From [Mycobacterium] stephanolepidis (GTDB lineage Bacteria > Actinomycetota > Actinomycetes > Mycobacteriales > Mycobacteriaceae), in assembly GCF_002356335.1 (NCBI RefSeq), contig NZ_AP018165.1, forward strand, positions 4,402,001-4,466,000: a stretch of 64,000 nucleotides of DNA, read 5' to 3'. Position 1 is the first letter of the stretch; each line of letters begins with the position of its first letter. Positions 28,450 through 42,872 of the stretch are shown here, in pieces. Under the pieces are notes generated by a model. It was not told where the DNA came from. It was given only the letters and a program-made list of their open reading frames with translations, and did not search any database. A program made the position numbers and the translations under genes.

Positions 28450-29943
28450 TCAGTATGCCGGGCGCTCGTGCGTAGACAACTGGGTGAGTATGCCTTCGGC
28501 ACTGCGGGCAGCCGCTAAACACAGCCTGCTGGTGAACGGATCGTTGAGTGGATACGCGGCCCGCGCGCGCCAGCGTCCCACCGCGTCCAGGGCGGCACGT
28601 CGCGGATCCGGGCGGGTCTCGTCCAGACCCAGGCGGGCGGCCGGTTCCGTGCCGGAGGCTCCCAGCAGTCTGCGGATGAGCACCGTCTCGTGTTCGGTGA
28701 GCGTGGTGGTTCGGGAGGACAACTCTGCCAACAGCCGTAGCTCATCGAAGGCGTGAGTGTCAGCGAGCAGGGGGTCGATGTCGTCGATCACCCGGCGCCC
28801 GCCCTGGACCGGATATGTGGTCAGTACCTGCCGAGCCGACAGCAGGGCGGTGTGCGATTTGAGGATGCCGGCGCGCTGACCGAACTGATTGGCAATGATG
28901 TTGTGCAACTCCACCAGACCGCTGCGCTCCAACAGCTCCTCGGCCAGGCCAGTGGCGTCGGTGACCCCAACCCTGATGACGGCCACCGAGATCCGGATAC
29001 CGAACATCCCAAATCGGTGCAGCAGGGCAGTCCGGGTCTGCGCATCAACCGTAAGCGAATCATCTTCGCGCACAAAACGATCCACCGACAGCAGTGCCTT
29101 GGCCAGCACCTGCGGGTCCACCTCGGCGAGTTTTTGCAGCGCGACGAATTCGGACTGCCGCAGGGTGCGGGCGGTCAGCGCCAGTAGCCCGGCCACGGGG
29201 ACAACGGCCTGGCAGATGCCCGTACGTTCCATCTCCGCGGCGAACCGGGCAGCCACTTCCCGCGCAGATAACATCGCATCGAGCCTTCCGACACCGATCT
29301 CGTCGGCACGCGACACCACGCCCACCACTCCGACAGCACCCCCACGCTCCCCACCGACAAGCTTGCCGATCTGGGCGAGCAGCCCGATATCGGCGGCGTT
29401 CAGGCTGCGCAGCAGAAATATCACCGCATCGACCCGGGGCACGCCATCCTCCGGTACCAGCAGCGCCAGGCTACGTTCGGAGACCTCGGTTGACAACGAC
29501 GAGGTGCCGGGGGTGTCGATGAGCGTGATCTCGTTCAATTCCGGTGCAGGCCAATTGACGTCGAGGTCCGCTACCGACGCCGGGTCTAGCCGGTCGAGCT
29601 CGAAGGAAAGCCCTCCCTCGCGACGGATGGGGATGTCCTGACGCACACCGCTGAACAGATTGGCCGTGACCCGCGGGGCGGCGCCGTGCCGGAACCACGC
29701 CACGATACGGGTGGCCTCGGTGGCATCCGTGGGTGCGATATCTTCTCCGACAAGCGCATTGACCAATGTGGACTTGCCTGCGTTAAGAGTGCCGGCGATG
29801 GCCACCCGGATGGGCTCGTCGAGCCTGGCGGCGATACGTCGCAATTCGTCGTGCGGCTCTGCGACGCGCAGATACCGCGAATCGCTCTGGTAGGCGCGCA
29901 ACGCGCTGCCGATAATGACGCGGGTCTGATCAATGCCACTCAT
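28450..29943 (-). CDS. iniC: Dynamin-like GTPase IniC
   Basis: A 497-aa dynamin-superfamily GTPase, closely matching Mtb IniC (Rv0343). G1 is AGTLNAGKSTLVNALVG, the switch region DIAPTDATEATRIV, G3 LIDTPGTSSL, and SRADE is the G4-like element. The rest is helical. IniC acts with IniA in the isoniazid/ethambutol-inducible envelope stress response, probably on the inner membrane. Start overlaps the iniA stop (ATGA at 29940-29943). Confidence 0.95.
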   Translation of the reverse strand: MSGIDQTRVIIGSALRAYQSDSRYLRVAEPHDELRRIAARLDEPIRVAIAGTLNAGKSTLVNALVGEDIAPTDATEATRIVAWFRHGAAPRVTANLFSGVRQDIPIRREGGLSFELDRLDPASVADLDVNWPAPELNEITLIDTPGTSSLSTEVSERSLALLVPEDGVPRVDAVIFLLRSLNAADIGLLAQIGKLVGGERGGAVGVVGVVSRADEIGVGRLDAMLSAREVAARFAAEMERTGICQAVVPVAGLLALTARTLRQSEFVALQKLAEVDPQVLAKALLSVDRFVREDDSLTVDAQTRTALLHRFGMFGIRISVAVIRVGVTDATGLAEELLERSGLVELHNIIANQFGQRAGILKSHTALLSARQVLTTYPVQGGRRVIDDIDPLLADTHAFDELRLLAELSSRTTTLTEHETVLIRRLLGASGTEPAARLGLDETRPDPRRAALDAVGRWRARAAYPLNDPFTSRLCLAAARSAEGILTQLSTHERPAY

Positions 29944-31823
29944 GCGTCTCTAGCCACTCTTCGCGCAGGCGGCTCATCGGCAGGCTGCAACGCTTCAACA
30001 TGGGTGTTGACCTGGCGAAGAATATGTAACTGACGCTCCACCTCCCGAGTGCGCGCATCGCGGTCCTCGGCTTCCAACCGTGCCGACGCGATGGCCGCCT
30101 GCAGCGACTCATTGAGAGATCGGGTGGTCTGGTTGGCGATCTCTCGAAAATGATCGCGCAGCTGCCGCTGCACCAGCCGCAGCCGGTCGCGCGATTCCTT
30201 GAGCACCACGAAGGACACGTCGTCAAGGAACCGGCGCACGTTGGTCTTTGCCTCGCCCCGGATGCGCAGCATCCGATTCTCCATGTCCTCGTTGTAGGTC
30301 TTCTTGCCCAGCACGGCGCCAGCACCCAGCGAGATGAGATTGAACATGCCGAGCCCGGCAACGGAGGTCAGCATGCCGAACATGATGACGCCACCGTACG
30401 ACCCGCGCAGCCCGGTGATGGCCTTGTGCCCCAACTTGATCGGCTTTGCTTCCAGTTTCGACAGCGAATTCAGGTCGCTCAGGTCGGCGCCCATCTCACT
30501 GGCCCGTAGGCGCGGCATTTTGATCGATTCCATGCCGTCGGTTGCGAAGGTCTCCGCCACCTGGGCGGCCAGGTGCATGGCGCGCTGATGTGCCCACACG
30601 AAGTTGTTTCCCACCGAGTTGGCTACGGCCTGTTCAAGTTTTGCCCCGATCTCCGCCCAGTTCTTGGTGGGGTCGGTGCGGTCTATGACCTCCTCGGTGC
30701 GTTGCAGGATGCGCCGGAATCGTGATTGCAGATCATGCTCGACATCGGTGGACACATCAGTGATGCCGTCGCCCAAAACCTGCTGCCACAGTGCGGTATG
30801 GGCCAGTGCTTCCTCGGCTTCGCGCTTGCGCCGTTCCAAGTCCGAGGTGAGCTCGTCACGACTCTGCGGGTCCTGCAGAGCACTCAGCTCGGCATCCAGC
30901 GTGAGAGTGAGATGCTCAGAAGCCGCACCGATCTCGGCGATCGCTTGCTGGCGCGAAGTGGTCTGCTGATCGGCGATGGCATTACTCAAAAAGGTCACCA
31001 ACGCGGGGAAGTTCGATTCTGCGTTGAGCTCCTTGTCGTTGAGCTGCAATGCATGCGTACGCAACGCCGAAGAAACGGCTATGGCCGGGACGGTGATGTT
31101 GGCGCGTTGCAGATGAGCAGAGTTGGCGCCCACCACAGCGCGCCACTGCGGGTACAGGTCCATCTTGGTGTTGACGATCACCGCGACGGGGCACAGATCC
31201 AGCGCCTGCTGGGTGAATACCAGCTCGGGTTCCGTGAATTCGGAACTGAGGTCGCTCACCATGAGCATGACGTCGGCGTCGGGAAGTAGACCGAGCGTAC
31301 TGGACAGATGCGGTTGGCCGAACCCACCAACACCGGGTGTATCCACCAGGCATAGAACACTTTTGAGCATCGGACTGGCCACCTTGACCTCTACCCGCAG
31401 TACCTCGCGTCCTCGGGCTTGCGGTGCGCGCTTGAGATCCTTGCCGATGTCTGCCACCGGAATCGGAATGATCTCAGGTTCCCCGGAGAGCCCACCGCCG
31501 TCGTACTGGTCGGCGGGCGCAACAACCAACGCGGCTGACGGCTGGTCACCGTAACTGATAACGGTTGTCACCGAAGTGGTTTCATCATCGCCCACCCGCG
31601 CGACGGGCATGTTGAGTAGTGAATTCACCAGCTGGCTCTTGCCCTGCTTGAGCTGACCGGCTACCACAACACGCAGGGGACGGTCCACGAGAAGTTGGTC
31701 CACACGGTTCAAGCGGTCAATCAGATCGCCTCGATCGTTCTCACCCGCGATCTTGCGCACATGCCCAAGCAGCTCGTTGATGAGCGCGGGCTGTTGTTGG
31801 CTGTCTTGTGCGGTGTCAGACAA
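29940..31823 (-). CDS. iniA: Dynamin-like GTPase IniA
   Basis: A 627-aa bacterial dynamin-like protein, homologous to Mtb IniA (Rv0342). G1 is VVAGQLKQGKSQLVNSLL, the switch GDDETTSVTTVISYG, G3 LVDTPGVGGFGQPH, and G4 NTKMDLYP. A long helical stalk follows, with the hydrophobic membrane paddle GGVIMFGMLTSVAGLGMFNL at residues about 485-505. Mtb-type IniA can remodel or fuse membranes and is linked to tolerance of cell-wall drugs. Start is TTG at 31823. A strong stem-loop separates it from iniB. Confidence 0.95.
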   Translation of the reverse strand: MSDTAQDSQQQPALINELLGHVRKIAGENDRGDLIDRLNRVDQLLVDRPLRVVVAGQLKQGKSQLVNSLLNMPVARVGDDETTSVTTVISYGDQPSAALVVAPADQYDGGGLSGEPEIIPIPVADIGKDLKRAPQARGREVLRVEVKVASPMLKSVLCLVDTPGVGGFGQPHLSSTLGLLPDADVMLMVSDLSSEFTEPELVFTQQALDLCPVAVIVNTKMDLYPQWRAVVGANSAHLQRANITVPAIAVSSALRTHALQLNDKELNAESNFPALVTFLSNAIADQQTTSRQQAIAEIGAASEHLTLTLDAELSALQDPQSRDELTSDLERRKREAEEALAHTALWQQVLGDGITDVSTDVEHDLQSRFRRILQRTEEVIDRTDPTKNWAEIGAKLEQAVANSVGNNFVWAHQRAMHLAAQVAETFATDGMESIKMPRLRASEMGADLSDLNSLSKLEAKPIKLGHKAITGLRGSYGGVIMFGMLTSVAGLGMFNLISLGAGAVLGKKTYNEDMENRMLRIRGEAKTNVRRFLDDVSFVVLKESRDRLRLVQRQLRDHFREIANQTTRSLNESLQAAIASARLEAEDRDARTREVERQLHILRQVNTHVEALQPADEPPARRVARDA

Positions 31824-31948: not shown

Positions 31949-34084
31949 TCAGTGGTGCTCGGTGCCCGGCAGGGCGGTGTGGTCGGTCGCCGCCACGTGG
32001 CTCTGAGCATGTCCCTGAGCTTCGAATCCGGTGCCGGCCGCAGCATGTGAACCCATCGAGGAGTTCAGCGACTCGTTCATCGAGGAGCTGTGCGAGGCAT
32101 CGAGCGAGCTGCTCATCGAGTGATTGATGGCACTGGCGTGCGAGCCGCTGCCGACCGCTGTGCTCCCGCCGGCAGAACCCGAACCGCTCAGCGCCTCGTT
32201 GATGGCACTGGTGTGGGTGCCACCACCGACTGCGGCGTTACCACCAACAGAACCCGAGCCACCCAACGACTCGTTAATCGCACCACCAACATGCGAACCC
32301 CCACCAACAGCACCACCAACATGAGAACCAGCACCCACGCCACCACCAACACCGGTGTTCACACCACCACCGACCGCAGCGTTACCACCAACAGAACCCG
32401 AGCCACCCAACGACTCGTTAATCGCACCACCAACATGCGAACCCCCACCAACAGCACCACCAACATGAGAACCAGCACCCACGCCACCACCAACACCGGT
32501 GTTCACACCACCACCAACTGCAGCGTTACCACCAACAGAACCCGAGCCACCCAACGACTCGTTAATCGCACCACCAACATGCGAACCCCCACCAACAGCA
32601 CCACCAACATGAGAACCAGCACCCACGCCACCACCAACACCGGTGTTCACGCCACCACCAACTGCAGCGTTACCGGCGACAGAACCCGAGCCACCCAACG
32701 ACTCGTTAATCGCACCACCAACATGCGAACCCCCACCAACAGCACCACCAACATGAGAACCAGCACCCACGCCACCACCAACACCGGTGTTCACACCACC
32801 ACCGACCGCAGCGTTACCGGCGACAGCGGCGTTACCCGCGACAGCGGCGTTACCGGCGACTGCCGCGCTACCAGCCAGACCAGCATTGCCCGCCAAACCA
32901 GCGTTACCCGCCAAACCAGCATTGCCCGCCAAACCAGCGTTACCCGCCAAACCAGCATTGCCCGCCAAACCAGCATTGCCCGCCAAACCAGCATTGCCCG
33001 CCAAACCAGCATTGCCCGCCAAACCAGCGTTACCCGCCAAACCAGCATTGCCCGCCAAACCAGCATTGCCCGCCAAACCAGCATTGCCCGCCAAACCAGC
33101 ATTGCCCGCCAAACCAGCATTGCCCGCCAAACCAGCATTGCCCGCCAAACCAGCGTTACCCGCCAAACCAGCGTTACCCGCCAAACCAGCGTTACCCGCC
33201 AAACCAGCGTTACCGCCCACAGCGGCCGAACCTGCGCCGCTGGTCGCGGTGCTGATGTTCGCCTGGTTGTGCGAGGCGATCTCAGTGTTCGTGGAGTTAC
33301 CCGAGCCGATGTTCGTGGTGTTACCCGAGCCGATGTTGGTCGAGCGATCGGTGTTGAACGAATCGTTGATGTTGGTGGTGTTGCGCTGCGAATGGTCGTC
33401 GACGACGTTCACGCTCTTGTCGATGTTGGCAGAGCCATGCCCGCTGACGTTGGTGTAGTCGCCGCCTACCCGAGTTTGGCTCTGATCCACACCGACACTG
33501 CTGCCGTGATCGGCATTGATGATGTTGCTATCGCGCACATCGCCGTTGACCGCGGTGGAACCCTTGCCGGAGGCGATCGGACCGGAGTTGCTGCCGCCCA
33601 CGGCGACGGCACCGTCGCCGATGGCGGTGGTGTCGCGGTTACCGAACTGAAGATCACCGAAGCTCAAGTCCAGGAGCGGACCGCGGTTGAAGCTGTCGAC
33701 ATTCCCGCTGGGGCTCATGACCTGGTTGCCGCTCGCGATCGGGTTGTGGCTCGCAAAGTCGGTGTCGTTGTGGCTCATGAAGTCGTTGCCCCGGGGGCTC
33801 AGCAGCGACGGCGACAGGATGCTCGGGGCATCGGGCTGTGCGGCGTAGTAGTTCTGCAGGTTGCCCGACAAGTCGTTCATCGGGTTGCCGGTGTTGACCC
33901 ACTGCGACTGGTAGCCGTAGTTGGAGGCCACCGATTCGGCGACGACCGGCATGACCGCACCCACCTGTGCGGCGGTAACGGCCGACAGTCCGGCGTTGGC
34001 CAGCGAGGTCTGCGGGTCGGCGACGTAGCTTGCGGCCTGCACCGGGTCGCGGAAGAGGTTGAGGATGAAGTCGATGATGGACAT
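31949..34084 (-). CDS. iniB: IniB, Gly/Ala/Asn repeat protein
   Basis: 711 aa, much longer than Mtb IniB (about 480 aa). Residues 1-55 form the IniB N-terminal domain (FILNLFRDPVQAASYVADP and VMPVVAESVASNYG). Residues 100-290 are Asn/Ser/Asp-rich. Then come nineteen GLAGNA hexapeptides (about residues 290-405), four 48-aa repeats with VGGGVNTGVGGGVGAGSHVGG (about 421-612), and a Ser/His/Ala tail. No signal peptide or helix is visible. AAGGAGA precedes the ATG. First gene of the drug-inducible iniBAC operon. The exact role of IniB is unknown. Confidence 0.92.
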   Translation of the reverse strand: MSIIDFILNLFRDPVQAASYVADPQTSLANAGLSAVTAAQVGAVMPVVAESVASNYGYQSQWVNTGNPMNDLSGNLQNYYAAQPDAPSILSPSLLSPRGNDFMSHNDTDFASHNPIASGNQVMSPSGNVDSFNRGPLLDLSFGDLQFGNRDTTAIGDGAVAVGGSNSGPIASGKGSTAVNGDVRDSNIINADHGSSVGVDQSQTRVGGDYTNVSGHGSANIDKSVNVVDDHSQRNTTNINDSFNTDRSTNIGSGNTTNIGSGNSTNTEIASHNQANISTATSGAGSAAVGGNAGLAGNAGLAGNAGLAGNAGLAGNAGLAGNAGLAGNAGLAGNAGLAGNAGLAGNAGLAGNAGLAGNAGLAGNAGLAGNAGLAGNAGLAGNAGLAGNAGLAGNAGLAGNAGLAGSAAVAGNAAVAGNAAVAGNAAVGGGVNTGVGGGVGAGSHVGGAVGGGSHVGGAINESLGGSGSVAGNAAVGGGVNTGVGGGVGAGSHVGGAVGGGSHVGGAINESLGGSGSVGGNAAVGGGVNTGVGGGVGAGSHVGGAVGGGSHVGGAINESLGGSGSVGGNAAVGGGVNTGVGGGVGAGSHVGGAVGGGSHVGGAINESLGGSGSVGGNAAVGGGTHTSAINEALSGSGSAGGSTAVGSGSHASAINHSMSSSLDASHSSSMNESLNSSMGSHAAAGTGFEAQGHAQSHVAATDHTALPGTEHH
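32247..32822. repeat. Four tandem 144-bp repeats inside iniB
   Basis: The sequence ACAGAACCCGAGCC recurs at 32247, 32391, 32535 and 32679, exactly 144 bp apart, and the intervening DNA is nearly identical. Each unit encodes 48 aa in frame. A fifth, degenerate copy lies below 32247. Confidence 0.95.
32869..33214. repeat. Nineteen tandem 18-bp repeats inside iniB
   Basis: The unit AAACCAGCATTGCCCGCC or AAACCAGCGTTACCCGCC is repeated 19 times with an exact 18-bp period and encodes GLAGNA on the minus strand. Only two sub-types (CATTG/CGTTA) occur, interspersed. Confidence 0.95.
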
Positions 34085-34224: not shown

Positions 34225-34241
34225 ATTAGGGGATTAGGGGG
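34225..34241. promoter_or_regulatory. Tandem ATTAGGGG motif upstream of iniB
   Basis: ATTAGGGG at 34225 and ATTAGGGGG at 34233 are arranged head-to-tail with 8-bp spacing, about 150 nt before the iniB ATG. A CCCCCATGGGGG palindrome is nearby at 34198-34209. The same octamer occurs in front of the second IniB-domain gene. Candidate binding site for the iniBAC activator IniR. Confidence 0.45.
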
Positions 34242-34357
34242 TCGCTAGGGGCCGGGTTCTCCGGGCGTTCATCGCCGCACCATTGCCCGGTTCTCGCCGC
34301 CTACAACTGGGCGGTCACAACGCTCTGAGCAGCGGAGACGGGCGGAATACTATCGTG

Positions 34358-34400
34358 CTTAGTATTTATCTACTATCTTTCCTAGTAGTTAAATACTAAG
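34358..34400. promoter_or_regulatory. 43-bp operator dyad before the dsbA-ccdA-blaI block
   Basis: Outer arms CTTAGTATTTA (34358-34368) and TAAATACTAAG (34390-34400) are perfect. Inner arms CTACTA (34370) and TAGTAG (34383) share the same centre (34379). It lies 28 nt before the GTG of the first gene and is much more AT-rich than its surroundings. The TACTA/TAGTA type of dyad is what BlaI/MecI/CopY repressors bind, and a BlaI protein is encoded in the same operon. Confidence 0.7.
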
Positions 34401-37324: not shown

Positions 37325-37750
37325 ATGAGCGTTCAGCGCGCCGGTCAGATCGCGCGATGGGTCATTCCCACGGGCGCCCGCCTGGTGTTCGGCGTCATCT
37401 TCCTCTTGGAGGGGACCCAGAAGATCTTCGGGTGGTGGAGCGGATCGCCCACCGGTTCCGGGCATCCCGAGCCGTTCCTCAACTGGCCGTACTGGTGGGC
37501 GGGCGTGTTCGAGCTGACACTCGGAATCCTGCTGACGGTGGGGTTGTGGACACGAGTGTCTGCAGTTCTCGCGGCGGGAATGATGGCGTACGCATACTTC
37601 TTCGAACACCTGCCGGTGCACTGGGAACCCATGCAAAACGGTGGAGCCTTCGCGGCCACATTCTGCTGGGGGTTCCTACTTCTGGCCCTCGCGGCAGATG
37701 ACGCCCGGCTATCGCTCGACCGTGTGCGCGCCCGCCACGCTCAGCGCTAG
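37325..37750 (+). CDS. DoxX family membrane protein
   Basis: A 141-aa four-helix DoxX-type protein (RLVFGVIFLLEGTQKIFGWW, then WWAGVFELTLGILLTVGLWTR). DoxX proteins are linked to thiol/oxidative stress complexes in mycobacteria, which fits the DsbA-CcdA neighbours. ATG 37325 has GAGGAGA upstream, while the in-frame extension to 37247 is M56-gene shadow. The stop overlaps the convergent IniB-like gene by 4 bp. Confidence 0.85.
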   Translation: MSVQRAGQIARWVIPTGARLVFGVIFLLEGTQKIFGWWSGSPTGSGHPEPFLNWPYWWAGVFELTLGILLTVGLWTRVSAVLAAGMMAYAYFFEHLPVHWEPMQNGGAFAATFCWGFLLLALAADDARLSLDRVRARHAQR

Positions 37751-38412
37751 AACTGGTCGATTCCGGGATTGTGATCGATTCCGGCCTGATGCCCAAGGTC
37801 TCCATGATCGAAGAACGGATCGTGCAGACCAGCGTCGCCGGAACCGCCGGCGCCCAGTTCGGAACCGAAATGCTGGGGCTCGAACCCGGCCGCGTCCACT
37901 CCGGACGGGGATGCGTGCAACGGAGCCTGGAACTGGTCGATCGCGGCGACCGCGCTGTCGGCCGAGGGACCGAACTGGTCGGGAACGATGATCGCGTCCT
38001 GACGAACGCTCAGATCCGACACCGCATTGGTCGCAGCGTGCAGACCCGCATCCAGGCTCGGGTCATGCGTCGGTGCGGTGAACGGCGAATCGAACGCCTC
38101 GAAGGCACTGGTCGCCGCGCCACTTGCCCAGATGTTGTCGGCTGGAATTGCCGTATGCACCGCGTGCGTCAGATCGGTGGCCGCCGGGTTCGCGGCGAAC
38201 TGCGAGGCCTGTGTTCCCAGTGCAGTCGGTATCGACTCGCTGACCACCGGGATCAGCGCGGAGACATCTGCGGGCTGGACTCCGTCCAGGTGTGCGTCGG
38301 CAATGACTTGTTCGGGATTGGCCGCGTACTGCGCGGCCATGTCCTGGTCACGGACCAGCGCCATGACGAAATCCAACAGGTTATTGCCCATGTCTGCGAT
38401 GGTAGGAGCCAC
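37747..38412 (-). CDS. IniB N-terminal-domain protein (second IniB-like, Rv0340 position)
   Basis: 221 aa. Residues 9-65 (LLDFVMALVRDQDMAAQYAA and ALIPVVSESIPTALG) align with the N-terminal domain of IniB (FILNLFRDPVQAASYVADP, VMPVVAESVASNYG), but no long repeats follow. The C-terminal 60 residues are Gly/His/Asp-rich and end HNPGIDQF. Start is GTG 38412 or ATG 38391. In Mtb, Rv0340 lies between iniR (Rv0339c) and iniB, so this is its positional counterpart. ATTAGGGG motifs precede it. Confidence 0.7.
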   Translation of the reverse strand: MAPTIADMGNNLLDFVMALVRDQDMAAQYAANPEQVIADAHLDGVQPADVSALIPVVSESIPTALGTQASQFAANPAATDLTHAVHTAIPADNIWASGAATSAFEAFDSPFTAPTHDPSLDAGLHAATNAVSDLSVRQDAIIVPDQFGPSADSAVAAIDQFQAPLHASPSGVDAAGFEPQHFGSELGAGGSGDAGLHDPFFDHGDLGHQAGIDHNPGIDQF

Positions 38413-38471: not shown

Positions 38472-38498
38472 ATTAGGGGATGTGTCGTCATTAGGGGG
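38472..38498. promoter_or_regulatory. ATTAGGGG pair in the iniB-like/Hsp70-like divergent promoter region
   Basis: ATTAGGGG at 38472-38479 and ATTAGGGGG at 38490-38498, 18 bp apart, in the 159-nt gap between the two divergent genes. An inverted ATCCCCTA lies just beyond (38512-38519). Same motif as upstream of iniB. Confidence 0.45.
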
Positions 38499-38571: not shown

Positions 38572-40401
38572 ATGGCCAACGCACTGGGATTGTCGATCGG
38601 CGCCACTCAACTGGTCGCGACACCCGACGACCCGCAGAGCCAACCCGTGGTGCGCAGTTCGATCCTCACCCTGCACGAGGACGGTCCACCCGAGGTTGGG
38701 GTACCGAGTCATCCAGGTTTGACGCTCACCGGATTTGTCGGCAGGGTCGGCGACCCCGTCGGCATCGTGGCGGCGGACGGGTCGGTTCATCGGGCCGAAT
38801 GGGCACTCACCGAGGCCATGCGCGTGTTGATCGCCGATGCGGCCTCCGCTGCCGAGTTCACCGCGCCTCCGGCACTGTCCGCCTCGGTACCCGCTCATTG
38901 GAGCCCGCAGACCGTCGCTACGCTCCGGGACGCGATCGACCGCGTTCCCGCCCTCGCTCCGGGCGGTCGGCAGCTGAAGTTGATCCCCGACGCGCGCGCC
39001 GCCCTGGAGTCGCTGGCCGCGGGGCCGGGAGTACCCGACCGCGGCGTCGTGGTGGTGTGTGATCTCGGAGGCTCGGGTAGCAGCATCACCCTGGCCGATG
39101 CGGCACGGGGATTCCAGCAGATCGGGCAGACCGTCCGATTCGTCGAGTTCTCCGGCCAGCAGATCGACCAGATGCTCCTGACGCAGGTTCTCACCGACCT
39201 CAACCAGGATCCCGAGGGCACCACATCGGTCGGCGCGCTGACCAGGCTGCGCGATCAGTGCCGGTTGGCCAAGGAGCGGCTCTCCGGCGAGACCGCGACC
39301 TCGGTGCCGGTGGCGCTTCCCGGAATCACCACCGACGTTCGGCTCACCCGCGCCGAACTCGAGGACCATCTGCGTGGCCCGCTATCCAACTTGATCAACG
39401 CCATTCAGGACACCTTGGAACGCAACGGAATTCATCCGGCGAACATCAACGCGATCGCCTCAGTGGGTGGCGGTGCCAACATTCCTCTTGTCACCCAACA
39501 ACTTTCCGAGCGAATGCGAGTACCGGTCATCACCGGCCCCCAGCCACAGCTCGCGGCCGCGCAGGGCGTGGCCTTGCTGGCCACCCGACCCGATCTGCCG
39601 CCACAGGACGCCACCGCGATGCGGCCGGTCGAGCAACCGACGGGCGATGCCACCATGATGCGCCCGGCACCCACCGGTACCGGAACCTTCGCCGCTCCGG
39701 TGGCCGCGGCCGCCAGCGATGCGCCGGAATTGGCATGGTCTCAGGACGATTCGGCTCCCGACTTGGCTCCGCTGCAAGAGACGGGCTACCAGAGCGGATA
39801 CAGCACCGGATATACGGTCGACCTCGACGACGAGTACCACGGCCCGGCCGAACCCACCACCGCTCGCCCCGAACTTCAGTTCAGCCACGAACCGTATGCG
39901 GCCGACGACGATTACGACGACTACCCGCCGCTGCCGTGGTACCGCCGGCCGCTGGTGTGGTTCATCGCCGCCGCCGCGGTGGCCGGCATTGCCTTCACCG
40001 GAATGATGGTGTCGCTGACCAGCGGTGAGTCACCGGCTCCTGCCCCGACCACACCGAGCGTGAGCGTGGTACCGAGCACCGGCGATGCCCCGGCCGAGCC
40101 GCCTCCGTCTGCCGAACCGCCGCCGCCACCGCAGACCCACACCGTGACGCAGTCGGTGCAACCGCCGCCGCCCTCGCCGGAGCCTCCTCCGCCGCCACCG
40201 ACGACGACAACCACACCCCCGACGACCACGACAACGACCACCACCACTACAACGACGACCACGACCACCACGACGACGCCGACCACCACGACGACAACCC
40301 AGCCGACGACAACGACCACGCAACCCCCTTCCACGTCCACGTCGCGCCCCATGATCACGATCCCGGGGTTGCCGCCGATCCCGATCGGTCCGCGCAACTG
40401 A
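38572..40401 (+). CDS. Membrane-anchored degenerate Hsp70-like protein with Thr-rich tail
   Basis: 609 aa. Residues 1-340 are an actin/Hsp70-type ATPase fold: phosphate-2 motif VCDLGGSGSSITLAD and adenosine motif ASVGGGANIPLV are good. Phosphate-1 reads LGLSIGATQLVA, so the catalytic Asp of DLGTT is replaced by Ser. There is no substrate-binding domain. A Pro/Tyr-rich stretch leads to one transmembrane helix (VWFIAAAAVAGIAFTGMMVSL, about 460-480), then a long Pro/Thr linker with about 30 Thr in a row-like run, ending MITIPGLPPIPIGPRN. First gene of an operon with iniR. Confidence 0.8.
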   Translation: MANALGLSIGATQLVATPDDPQSQPVVRSSILTLHEDGPPEVGVPSHPGLTLTGFVGRVGDPVGIVAADGSVHRAEWALTEAMRVLIADAASAAEFTAPPALSASVPAHWSPQTVATLRDAIDRVPALAPGGRQLKLIPDARAALESLAAGPGVPDRGVVVVCDLGGSGSSITLADAARGFQQIGQTVRFVEFSGQQIDQMLLTQVLTDLNQDPEGTTSVGALTRLRDQCRLAKERLSGETATSVPVALPGITTDVRLTRAELEDHLRGPLSNLINAIQDTLERNGIHPANINAIASVGGGANIPLVTQQLSERMRVPVITGPQPQLAAAQGVALLATRPDLPPQDATAMRPVEQPTGDATMMRPAPTGTGTFAAPVAAAASDAPELAWSQDDSAPDLAPLQETGYQSGYSTGYTVDLDDEYHGPAEPTTARPELQFSHEPYAADDDYDDYPPLPWYRRPLVWFIAAAAVAGIAFTGMMVSLTSGESPAPAPTTPSVSVVPSTGDAPAEPPPSAEPPPPPQTHTVTQSVQPPPPSPEPPPPPPTTTTTPPTTTTTTTTTTTTTTTTTTTPTTTTTTQPTTTTTQPPSTSTSRPMITIPGLPPIPIGPRN

Positions 40402-40499
40402 ACGCCCCTCGGGAAAACGGACCCTCCGGGACATTCGACGGAATCGCCTCGGCGGTAACGACTATCACGCAGGCGCTGTCCGCGGGCAGCGCGGCGAAG

Positions 40500-42872
40500 G
40501 TGCTCATCAGCGGCACCGCCGGCAGTGGTAAGACATCGATACTGGCGCGGATTCGAGACGTACTGAGCAACGCCGGCTCTCCGCCGGTCAACCATGTCCC
40601 CGAGACAGCTACCGGAAAAACCTTGGGCCCCTTCGTCATCGATGACGCAGACTCCCTGACCGGCCCACAGCTCGACACCCTGCGTGCCGTCGTGGAGAAC
40701 AATCCGGCAGCCATCGTGGTGGTGGCCGCGACACCCCGGCACCGGCCAGCGCTGCGCGCACTGTTCCAGGCCCTGGAACGCGAGTCGCCCACCATCGCCC
40801 TGGGGCCCGTCGACAAGAGTGATATCGCCAGGCTTTCGGCCCGCTCAGCTGCCTTCGCCGAAGAGATCGTGACCGCCACCGGCGGAGTGCTGACACTGGT
40901 GGCGGCGGCCGTCGATCGCCTGGACGAAGCGGATCCACTCGAATCGGCACTGCGTGCGATCGATTCCCGCATTGACGAACAACTGCGCCGCCTCTCGCCG
41001 TCTGCCCAGGCCACCGTGCTGTTGATGTCCTTGAACCCCGGCATCGGAGCCTCGGATATCGCTGCGGCGCTTGCGCTTTCCGATGCCGAAGATCTAGTCG
41101 ACGAGGCTCTGACAAGCGGGCTGGTACCCGCCCCCGGTCAGATCGCCTTCGCGGCCAGAGTGCACGGCTGCGCCACACGATTGCTGGGTGCGGCACGGCA
41201 CCTCGATCTCGAACGATCACTACTGCGCACGCAGCTCGACATCGGTTCGGTGTCCACCGACCTGGCCCTGGCCCTGGTAGCCCACGGATTGCGCGATACG
41301 CAGATCGCCGGGCTGCTATCCGATTGGGCTGCAACCGAATCTGATCCTCTCACCGCGGCAGACCTGTACCGCGCCGCCCTGGCTGCGGGCGCCGAACCGG
41401 GCCCGATCAGGGTGCCGCTGGCCGAGTCGCTGGCGCGCGCGGGTGACCTGGCTGCAGCGGCCGCCCAGGCCGACGAGGTGCTCACCGCCACCGATCCGGG
41501 TCATCGCACGGAAGCCGTACGTATCGCGGCGGCCATCGCGTGCCACAGCGGAGACTCCGGTCAGGCCGTCGCGCTGTACGACTGGCTGGGTTCGGGACTG
41601 GACGGCCTGACGGCCTTGTCCGCTGCGCCGGTTTTCGTGGGTATCGGCCAGTTGACGAGTGCACGAAAAGTGTTGGAAGACAACTTGGGAGCTCCGCCTA
41701 CGACATCGGCCACCGCGACGCGAAATGCAGCTCAGGGGGTCATCGCATCTGTTGAGGGCCGTGACCACGAGGCGCTGTCCCTGCTCGGTCAGGCCGTCAC
41801 GCAGCAGCCGGCGACGTCTTCCTTCACCCCGGACAGCACTGTCGCTCTGGCCGCGCTGACCATGCTGCACAGCGGCGAGACGGCGCGCGCCCGCGGCATT
41901 CTCGCCGGTGCGATCCGTACCGATCTGCCCCATGACGTGTTCGCGGTGCGGCATCGGCTGCTCGCCGCCTGGATTGCCATGCTGTCCGGCGATCTGACCG
42001 GTGCCGCGCAATGGCTACCCGAGGCCGACACCGAGCTCTCGCGACGCGATCGTCTGTTCGCCGAGTCGCTACGGACCGGCATCGCCCGGCGCCACGGCGA
42101 TACCGGTCCGCTGCGCCAGCACTGGCAGTCCTCGATGGATGCGTTGTCGGCATATTCGATCGATCTCTACACACTGCTTCCGGTTGGCGAGCTCTGGGTG
42201 GCCGCGGCGCGGCTGCGCACCCTGGATGCCGTCACGCATCATGTCGACCGCGCATTCGCGGTTCTGGCGCAGCTCGGCGATCCCATCGCCTGGTCCGCAC
42301 CCCTGCGATGGGCGGGCGTGCACGCCGCGATCCTGACCAATTCACCGGAGAACCTCGCCCCGCACGGACAGGCCCTCGCGGCGGCCGCTGGGGTCAGCCC
42401 GTACGCGCGAACCCTGGCGACGGCCGGGCGCACGTGGCTGCGGGTGCTCGCCAATCAGGTGGACGGCGCGGAGGTCGATGCCGCCGCGCGGATGCTGGCC
42501 GACACCGGCCTCGGTTGGGATGCGACCCGCTTGGCCAGCCAGGCCGCGCTGCACGCGAACGACCCGAAGGTGGCGGCCGCGATGCTCGCATTGGCCCGCG
42601 ATCTGCGTACGCCGTCGGCCAACACCGACGGCCCCGACCTTGCCGCGGCGCCGTCCTCGGCCGCTCATTCGCCGACATCCACGCGTCTCTCGGATCGTGA
42701 GCGCGAGGTCGCCGAGCTGCTGCTACGCGGCCTTCCCTACCGCGATATCGGTGCGCAGCTGTTCATTTCGGCGAAGACGGTCGAGCATCACGTCGCCCGC
42801 ATTCGCCGGCGCCTCGGGGCCGAATCGCGCTCTGACATGTTCTCGATGTTGCGGTCGATCCTGAGCCCATAA
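40500..42872 (+). CDS. iniR: LuxR-type STAND ATPase regulator IniR (Rv0339c-like)
   Basis: Large regulator: N-terminal P-loop (ISGTAGSGKTS), Walker B-like FVIDDADSL, a long helical TPR-like middle, and a C-terminal LuxR helix-turn-helix (LSDREREVAELLLRGLPYRD and ISAKTVEHHVARIRRRLGA). Position next to the Fe-S oxidoreductase and aspC matches Mtb Rv0339c, reported as the activator IniR of iniBAC responding to trehalose. The first standard start, GTG 40500, begins at the Walker A strand. The frame is open upstream through a CTG at 40398 that overlaps the Hsp70-like stop (CTGA) and would give 824 aa, near the Mtb length. Confidence 0.82.
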   Translation: MLISGTAGSGKTSILARIRDVLSNAGSPPVNHVPETATGKTLGPFVIDDADSLTGPQLDTLRAVVENNPAAIVVVAATPRHRPALRALFQALERESPTIALGPVDKSDIARLSARSAAFAEEIVTATGGVLTLVAAAVDRLDEADPLESALRAIDSRIDEQLRRLSPSAQATVLLMSLNPGIGASDIAAALALSDAEDLVDEALTSGLVPAPGQIAFAARVHGCATRLLGAARHLDLERSLLRTQLDIGSVSTDLALALVAHGLRDTQIAGLLSDWAATESDPLTAADLYRAALAAGAEPGPIRVPLAESLARAGDLAAAAAQADEVLTATDPGHRTEAVRIAAAIACHSGDSGQAVALYDWLGSGLDGLTALSAAPVFVGIGQLTSARKVLEDNLGAPPTTSATATRNAAQGVIASVEGRDHEALSLLGQAVTQQPATSSFTPDSTVALAALTMLHSGETARARGILAGAIRTDLPHDVFAVRHRLLAAWIAMLSGDLTGAAQWLPEADTELSRRDRLFAESLRTGIARRHGDTGPLRQHWQSSMDALSAYSIDLYTLLPVGELWVAAARLRTLDAVTHHVDRAFAVLAQLGDPIAWSAPLRWAGVHAAILTNSPENLAPHGQALAAAAGVSPYARTLATAGRTWLRVLANQVDGAEVDAAARMLADTGLGWDATRLASQAALHANDPKVAAAMLALARDLRTPSANTDGPDLAAAPSSAAHSPTSTRLSDREREVAELLLRGLPYRDIGAQLFISAKTVEHHVARIRRRLGAESRSDMFSMLRSILSP

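Follow-up and report, generated by a model that had tools for sequence, protein, structure and literature searches.

MalT is a STAND activator that binds G-rich direct repeats and is controlled by the partner proteins MalK, MalY and Aes; to our knowledge, none of these partners is Hsp70-like or translationally coupled to malT. IniR, the activator of the iniBAC envelope-stress genes, has a MalT-like architecture (Boot et al., 2017). In [Mycobacterium] stephanolepidis (contig NZ_AP018165.1, positions 4,402,001 to 4,466,000; this whole stretch of 64,000 nucleotides is the window analysed here), iniR directly follows the gene of an Hsp70-like membrane protein, here called HSPL. HSPL looks like a long-standing part of the ini envelope-stress module that has escaped notice; the computations establish its predicted fold, its residue losses, an order-wide pairing, a conserved gene overlap and a DNA element at iniB-type promoters.

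HSPL shares with the nucleotide-binding domain of Hsp70/DnaK the ASKHA fold (residues 1-343), the phosphate-2 Asp and the adenosine-site GG. It differs in having no substrate domain, Ser at phosphate-1, no Lys at K70, Asp at E171 and ~20% identity, and in carrying a membrane helix and a predicted outside tail. Ssz1, the atypical Hsp70 of the ribosome-associated complex, is tied with DnaK when compared with HSPL and shows no special kinship. It has a substrate-like domain and a J-protein partner, which have no counterpart in the HSPL system. An HSPL clade starting MYDPxGLSIG, which we take to be that of Rv0312, has copies (L079, L081, L091) that lie away from iniR, unlike HSPL. Like HSPL, Rv0312/MSMEG_0692 is described as Pro/Thr-rich with one transmembrane helix (PMC11898655). 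A dnaK-like gene directly downstream of iniR has been presented as a difference of M. smegmatis (Boot et al., 2017); it occupies the same locus and is probably of the same family as HSPL. No further study of this gene was found in the literature searched, and none of the papers listed from the open-licence literature deals with an HSPL-IniR pair or with TTAGGGG as an IniR box.

Across the genus, IniR scored above the NF038181 cut-off in 101 of 148 genomes, and an HSPL head was found in 142 of 148, with 1-7 copies each. In at least 70 of the 101, HSPL is the gene directly 5' of iniR and has the same orientation. This is a lower bound, because it counts the matches listed and because, in at least 6 of the remaining 31, iniR begins no more than 500 bases from a contig end. 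Twenty mycobacterial loci were compared at 20 kb, ten of them picked for missing HSPL before iniR; these ten are presumably from slow growers. In five of the other ten (L096-L100), a second HSPL gene is located directly 3' of iniR, before the Rv0338c-like gene.

IniR relatives are present in 113 of 298 genomes of the order, mycobacteria included. Forty loci outside the mycobacteria (this assignment, like that of slow growers, is made from sequence) were compared, 15 picked with both genes on one contig and 25 by IniR alone. At 38 of the 40, HSPL is the immediate neighbour of IniR, and IniA and IniC are encoded on the opposite strand (the exceptions are L178, at a contig end, and L185); among the 25 loci not chosen for HSPL, the pair is present in 23. 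Against 20 mycobacterial IniRs, whose pairwise identity is 55% or more, the IniRs of these loci reach 34-41% with the closest one. Five of these outside members score 406-496 bits with NF038181, below the cut-off, and match no other family at E 1e-20; the Walker A Lys is replaced by Arg in L150, L170-172, L176 and L177. The HSPL of L146 is 98% identical to a Micromonospora protein. Pairing of HSPL with IniR therefore recurs well beyond the mycobacteria and, given its frequency both outside and within them, HSPL is no local oddity. The partnership proposed in an earlier sequence-only reading of this DNA is real in gene order; it is not obligatory, as the ten chosen mycobacterial loci show.

HSPL has an ASKHA/actin-like nucleotide-binding domain, as Hsp70 chaperones (PF00012) do. 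The substrate-binding domain, whose absence the sequence-only reading had stated, and the lid are missing: the Pfam HSP70 match stops at profile position 372 of 599, and the AlphaFold2 model consists of a single confident head (1-343), a disordered linker (most of 345-448) and one helix (460-483). Hydropathy reaches its maximum of 2.07 at residue 462, WYRRP is located on the N-side and residues 484-520 contain no Lys or Arg; these features fit a predicted N-in/C-out topology. The tail contains 44 Thr and 37 Pro in 126 residues. Membrane anchoring, which had also been proposed, is thus predicted for this HSPL, but it is not essential to pairing. A clear membrane helix (hydropathy of at least 2.2 on open frames, a crude rule) is present in 9 of 39 HSPLs outside the mycobacteria (L093, L159-L162, L175, L182-L184) and missing from the other 30.

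Within the linker, the near-invariant T348 and T361 sit in DATAMRP and DATMMRP (39613-39660), which are DATxMRP-like repeats; they are possible phosphorylation sites because of a link to FhaA described below. Seven named genomes (Mycobacteroides or Mycobacterium sp.) have an HSPL head with 93-96% identity to that of the window, and the label of a partial 99% match is M. stephanolepidis; the window is that of a Mycobacteroides of M. chelonae/stephanolepidis type. A Mycobacteroides paralogue at another locus (L038-L040) has ~470 amino acids, a short tail and a head 65-67% identical to that of HSPL.

Compared with the window's own DnaK, the phosphate-1 motif of HSPL (LGLSIGATQLV) has Ser in place of Asp, in agreement with the sequence-only reading. 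Among HSPL and its best 120 homologues, all 119 sequences with a residue at this position have Ser; Ser8 is therefore a family trait and not local decay. In the same alignment, Asp is found at E171 in 118 of 120 sequences and at phosphate-2 in all 120. The window's HSPL has Ser, Val, Asp and Asp at phosphate-1, K70, E171 and phosphate-2, the K70 and E171 assignments resting on alignment, and so lacks the full Hsp70 catalytic set. At 38 loci outside the mycobacteria, the phosphate-1 residue is Asp in 28, His in 8 and Thr in 2; the phosphate-2 Asp is present in 5 and neither Asp in 8, while K70 is Lys in none and E171 is Glu in 9. In mycobacterial HSPLs it is the first Asp that has disappeared, in most others the second; the losses are lineage-dependent, and in most lineages the head retains the fold without a complete catalytic set. 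Loss of catalytic residues by different routes suggests that HSPL is a pseudo-ATPase, a chaperone-like protein whose enzyme activity has probably been lost. A decayed copy of DnaK was rejected because of the family-wide residue conservation. The earlier term 'degenerate' does not fit a conserved family with several paralogues per genome.

The HSPL/IniR junction of the window reads CAACTGAA. The overlap of the HSPL stop codon with a CTG of the IniR frame had been read correctly and is present in all 11 readable Mycobacteroides genomes (the window and ten others; a twelfth, G005, ends short of the junction). GTG 40500 is the first ATG, GTG or TTG in the IniR frame; the sequence-only reading had stated that none precedes the Walker A strand. 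In nine of ten Mycobacteroides loci, the open frame 5' of the CTG has none of these codons; the exception is L007, with a GTG 466 nt further 5'. Of 30 loci from other mycobacteria, 28 have an ATG placed 26-36 residues ahead of the P-loop (L033 lacks it and the search left L008 unresolved), and the HSPL stop is 3-18 nt 5' of that ATG wherever in view (L018 and L037 end before HSPL); L114 has an ATGA overlap. A set of 42 loci (the 40 outside loci with L093 and L095), 40 of them with HSPL, was used for junctions outside the mycobacteria. NTGA (ATGA, GTGA or TTGA) was found at 29 of 40, TRATG at 5 and other arrangements at 6. This prevalence of the four-base overlap supports the proposed translational linkage and makes CTG 40398 the probable start of IniR.

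CTG 40398 is the sole candidate start in the window 5' of helix 14-28, which stands ahead of the first strand in the AlphaFold2 model; residues 1-11 are disordered. No sequence resembling a Shine-Dalgarno site is evident by eye before it. Synonymous change was compared with column permutation in 10 Mycobacteroides sequences (L006 was dropped due to an indel): values as high were obtained in 52 of 2000 permutations for codons 2-33, in 37 of 2000 for codons 16-33 and, as a control, in 0 of 2000 for the last 57 nt of HSPL in its own frame. For codons 2-15 the synonymous bias is not significant (equally high values arose in 449 of 2000 permutations), which counts against a start at the CTG. The test supports coding 5' of GTG 40500 without extending it to the CTG. 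The DNA from 40355 to 40455 is strongly conserved, third positions included, in most of the 11 Mycobacteroides genomes, and GGAATCGCCTCGGCG directly follows the CTG in all 11.

GTG 40500, the alternative start named in the sequence-only reading, was rejected: it is missing in 3 of 10 Mycobacteroides loci, and its use would delete the helix before the P-loop. Public Mycobacteroides IniR entries have 778-813 amino acids across ten clusters, five of them 798. The public M. abscessus IniR (P0125) is annotated 8-9 codons past the CTG position, still before the helix; this species is known here from its public protein entry, L075 being nearest to the M. immunogenum entry. Most of the public Mycobacteroides entries compared here are probably truncated at the N-terminus. 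An HSPL-IniR fusion by frameshift was also rejected, since IniR would end up outside the cell. A public 858-amino-acid entry (P0131) that runs the HSPL membrane region into the IniR frame, from a 3.2-kb contig under a protist name, is taken as an error.

Four copies of ATTAGGGG are found around iniB and iniB* and nowhere else in the 64 kb, where 0.39 are expected. Two TTAGGGG copies on the HSPL side are present at all six other Mycobacteroides loci compared; the tandem pair further upstream is present in five, and L006 has a single copy. The 20 mycobacterial 20-kb loci contain 88 copies. Of these, 79 fall in the interval from the iniA 5' end to the IniR P-loop and are without exception on the iniR strand; the other 9 are found after the iniR stop and before the next gene, every one on the opposite strand. 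Outside the mycobacteria, 46 of 52 copies precede the HSPL head by no more than 450 bp and share its strand, and 32 of 40 loci have at least one.

Genome-wide, TTAGGGG-N(1-12)-TTAGGGG gave 28 matches in 12 of 16 genomes (25 at the ini locus and 3 elsewhere), against 6 for the reversed control in the same 16; four genomes (G525, G571, G567, G543) contain no pair. The three pairs elsewhere (L186-L188) are each followed, after 137-165 nt, by a gene whose product has an IniB N-terminal domain (NF038175 60-68 bits, cut-off 40); in the window, the spacing to iniB is similar (141-156 nt). Paired TTAGGGG marks iniB-type promoters and is a candidate IniR box, to which IniR may bind. A chromatin immunoprecipitation peak has been reported upstream of iniBAC; a term search of the text of that report found no binding motif (Boot et al., 2017). 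The sequence upstream of Rv0339c, with two TTAGGGG copies, has been printed as a possible G-quadruplex (PMC5515968). By their orientation, the boxes suit iniB, iniB* and the second HSPL gene as targets, and HSPL is not necessarily among these.

The favoured reading, to which we assign a probability of about one half, is that HSPL is a non-hydrolysing gate or anchor of IniR; a signalling pair of the two proteins is plausible on sequence grounds. The four-base stop/start coupling would fix the HSPL:IniR ratio and the place of synthesis. The HSPL head would bind nucleotide, hydrolyse it little or not at all, and contact IniR; it would hold or gate this STAND-type ATPase up to the point at which damage to the envelope alters the ATP or trehalose status. 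A head tethered to the membrane with its tail in the wall, as predicted for mycobacteria and some other lineages, would add an envelope input. IniR would then activate iniB, and probably iniB* and the second HSPL gene where present, via the tandem TTAGGGG boxes. The wider proposal, that a STAND ATPase is controlled by a co-translated Hsp70-fold pseudo-ATPase, with HSPL as the nucleotide-reading half of the IniR switch across the order and membrane-tethered in mycobacteria, is more tentative. M. tuberculosis, which presumably has no HSPL partner at its ini locus, would then be a simplified exception.

Several observations weigh against control of IniR by HSPL. The ten chosen mycobacterial loci indicate that the pairing can break: HSPL is located beside iniC in 8 of them (none is shown in L106 and L112 is cut off). 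HSPL relatives occur in 41 of 47 genus genomes without an over-cut-off IniR; the family therefore has other roles. Three HSPLs (L159, L160, L175) retain both the phosphate-1 and the phosphate-2 Asp, and two IniRs (L093, L095) have no P-loop domain yet are paired with HSPL. The boxes at the second HSPL gene are oriented as before iniB and speak for an effector role. In M. tuberculosis and M. marinum, IniR is active and induces iniBAC, and its overexpression alone induces an iniBAC reporter in M. smegmatis (Boot et al., 2017).

The main rival, which we consider somewhat less probable, places HSPL in the effector arm: a membrane-anchored actin/Hsp70-fold scaffold would act with IniB, IniA/IniC and the FhaA polar growth complex in mending or reshaping the envelope, and coupling to iniR would serve co-production only. 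The eight iniC-side copies agree with this. In a 48-row tree they join ten iniR-upstream copies, most of those from other mycobacteria (88/94, not a starred branch), and the window HSPL joins the Mycobacteroides paralogue (98/93); the iniR-upstream HSPLs are therefore not one clade (5 changes needed). All 9 TTAGGGG copies before the second HSPL (L096-L100) are on the minus strand, in the same orientation to the gene as before iniB. MSMEG_0692, a Pro/Thr-rich protein with one transmembrane helix, ATP binding and the ortholog Rv0312, was recovered only with FhaA (PMC11898655). It may be an ini-locus HSPL, at or near that locus, because its tag is three from that of IniA, MSMEG_0695 (PMC2945938). 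On the other side, the HSPLs outside the mycobacteria that have no clear helix are mostly coupled to iniR and not to iniBAC. HSPL divergence also correlates slightly more with IniR (partial correlation 0.40) than with IniC (0.35) or IniA (0.13), on pairs that are non-independent. Promoter activity of iniBAC in BCG depends on ATP level (PMC6104191). As this and the FhaA result fit either a sensor or an effector, the regulator keeps its even odds and the effector stays below it.

It is improbable that HSPL is an assembly factor which folds or oligomerises nascent IniR, needed in some lineages and dispensable elsewhere. The Hsp70-type fold and an overlap that brings both nascent chains together are consistent with such a role, but the substrate-binding domain and catalytic residues are missing, the mycobacterial membrane anchor has no obvious benefit to a folding factor, and IniR works in species without a described neighbouring HSPL (Boot et al., 2017). 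That HSPL is a mere neighbour of an IniR starting at GTG 40500, or at codons 24-27 as in most public annotation, is very unlikely: GTG is a normal start codon, the public lengths agree and codons 2-15 have no significant coding signal, but L006 has no ATG, GTG or TTG at all before Walker A, the helix would be cut or deleted, and the upstream ATGs of other mycobacteria, the NTGA homology and the bias of codons 16-33 all point to an earlier start.

In the window, iniC, iniA and iniB (minus strand) lie divergent from the regulator. They are followed by a DsbA-like/BlaI-type/peptidase operon (plus), iniB* (minus), and HSPL, IniR and an Rv0338c-like gene (plus), the last labelled from gene order. 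IniR exceeds its family cut-off and contains a P-loop NTPase and a LuxR helix-turn-helix. Among the neighbours of the DsbA-like gene are those of a BlaI-type repressor (Pfam Penicillinase_R, 93 bits) and of a peptidase with an M48 match. Just 5' of the DsbA-like gene, 34346-34398 contains an inverted repeat, ATTTATCTACTATCTTTCCTAGTAGTTAAAT, and a 23-nt repeat; this looks like a candidate BlaI-type operator. Within iniB there are an 18-nt tandem array (18.6 copies, GLAGNA; 32874-33208) and a 144-nt array (32220-32818).

Table 1. Features of the ini locus, in window coordinates.
Feature	Position	Strand	Support
iniC, dynamin-like	28450..29943	-	Pfam Dynamin_N 42.2 bits; name from position beside iniA
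iniA, dynamin-like	29940..31823	-	Pfam Dynamin_N 50.3 bits; name from position beside iniB
iniB	31949..34084	-	NF038175 IniB N-terminal domain 76 bits
Candidate IniR boxes, ATTAGGGG twice in tandem, 141-156 nt 5' of iniB	34225..34240	+	
iniB* (Rv0340 family, IniB-related)	37747..38412	-	NF038176 113 bits
Candidate IniR boxes, ATTAGGGG twice in the iniB*/HSPL gap	38472..38497	+	
HSPL, 609-aa Hsp70-like membrane protein	38572..40401	+	Pfam HSP70 E 8.6e-18
HSPL ASKHA (Hsp70 nucleotide-binding-like) head, cytoplasmic, residues 1-343, Ser8 for phosphate-1 Asp	38572..39600	+	
HSPL disordered cytoplasmic linker; T348, T361, L387 near-invariant, AWS (388-390) invariant	39601..39948	+	64-sequence columns; model confidence (pLDDT) mostly <50
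HSPL transmembrane helix, residues 460-483	39949..40020	+	AlphaFold2 model, hydropathy
HSPL Thr/Pro-rich 126-aa tail, predicted outside	40021..40398	+	Positive-inside rule (inference)
CTGA, HSPL stop (TGA 40399-40401) overlapping IniR CTG	40398..40401	+	11/11 genomes
IniR, 824 aa from CTG 40398 (probable start)	40398..42872	+	NCBIfam NF038181 827.6 bits, cut-off 750
IniR helix 14-28, lost with GTG 40500 start	40437..40481	+	AlphaFold2 model
GTG, codon 35, alternative IniR start, 12 nt 5' of Walker A	40500..40502	+	In 7/10 Mycobacteroides loci
IniR Walker A GTAGSGKT	40512..40535	+	
IniR LuxR-type DNA-binding domain	42687..42848	+	Pfam GerE E 4.9e-15

With an order-wide partner gene, tandem TTAGGGG as a likely operator and the start corrected, the sensing of wall damage by IniR (trehalose, ATP) becomes testable. 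If the regulator reading is true, HSPL would be an unusual use of the Hsp70 fold as a non-chaperone regulator, and mycobacterial envelope stress would be sensed by an HSPL-IniR complex.

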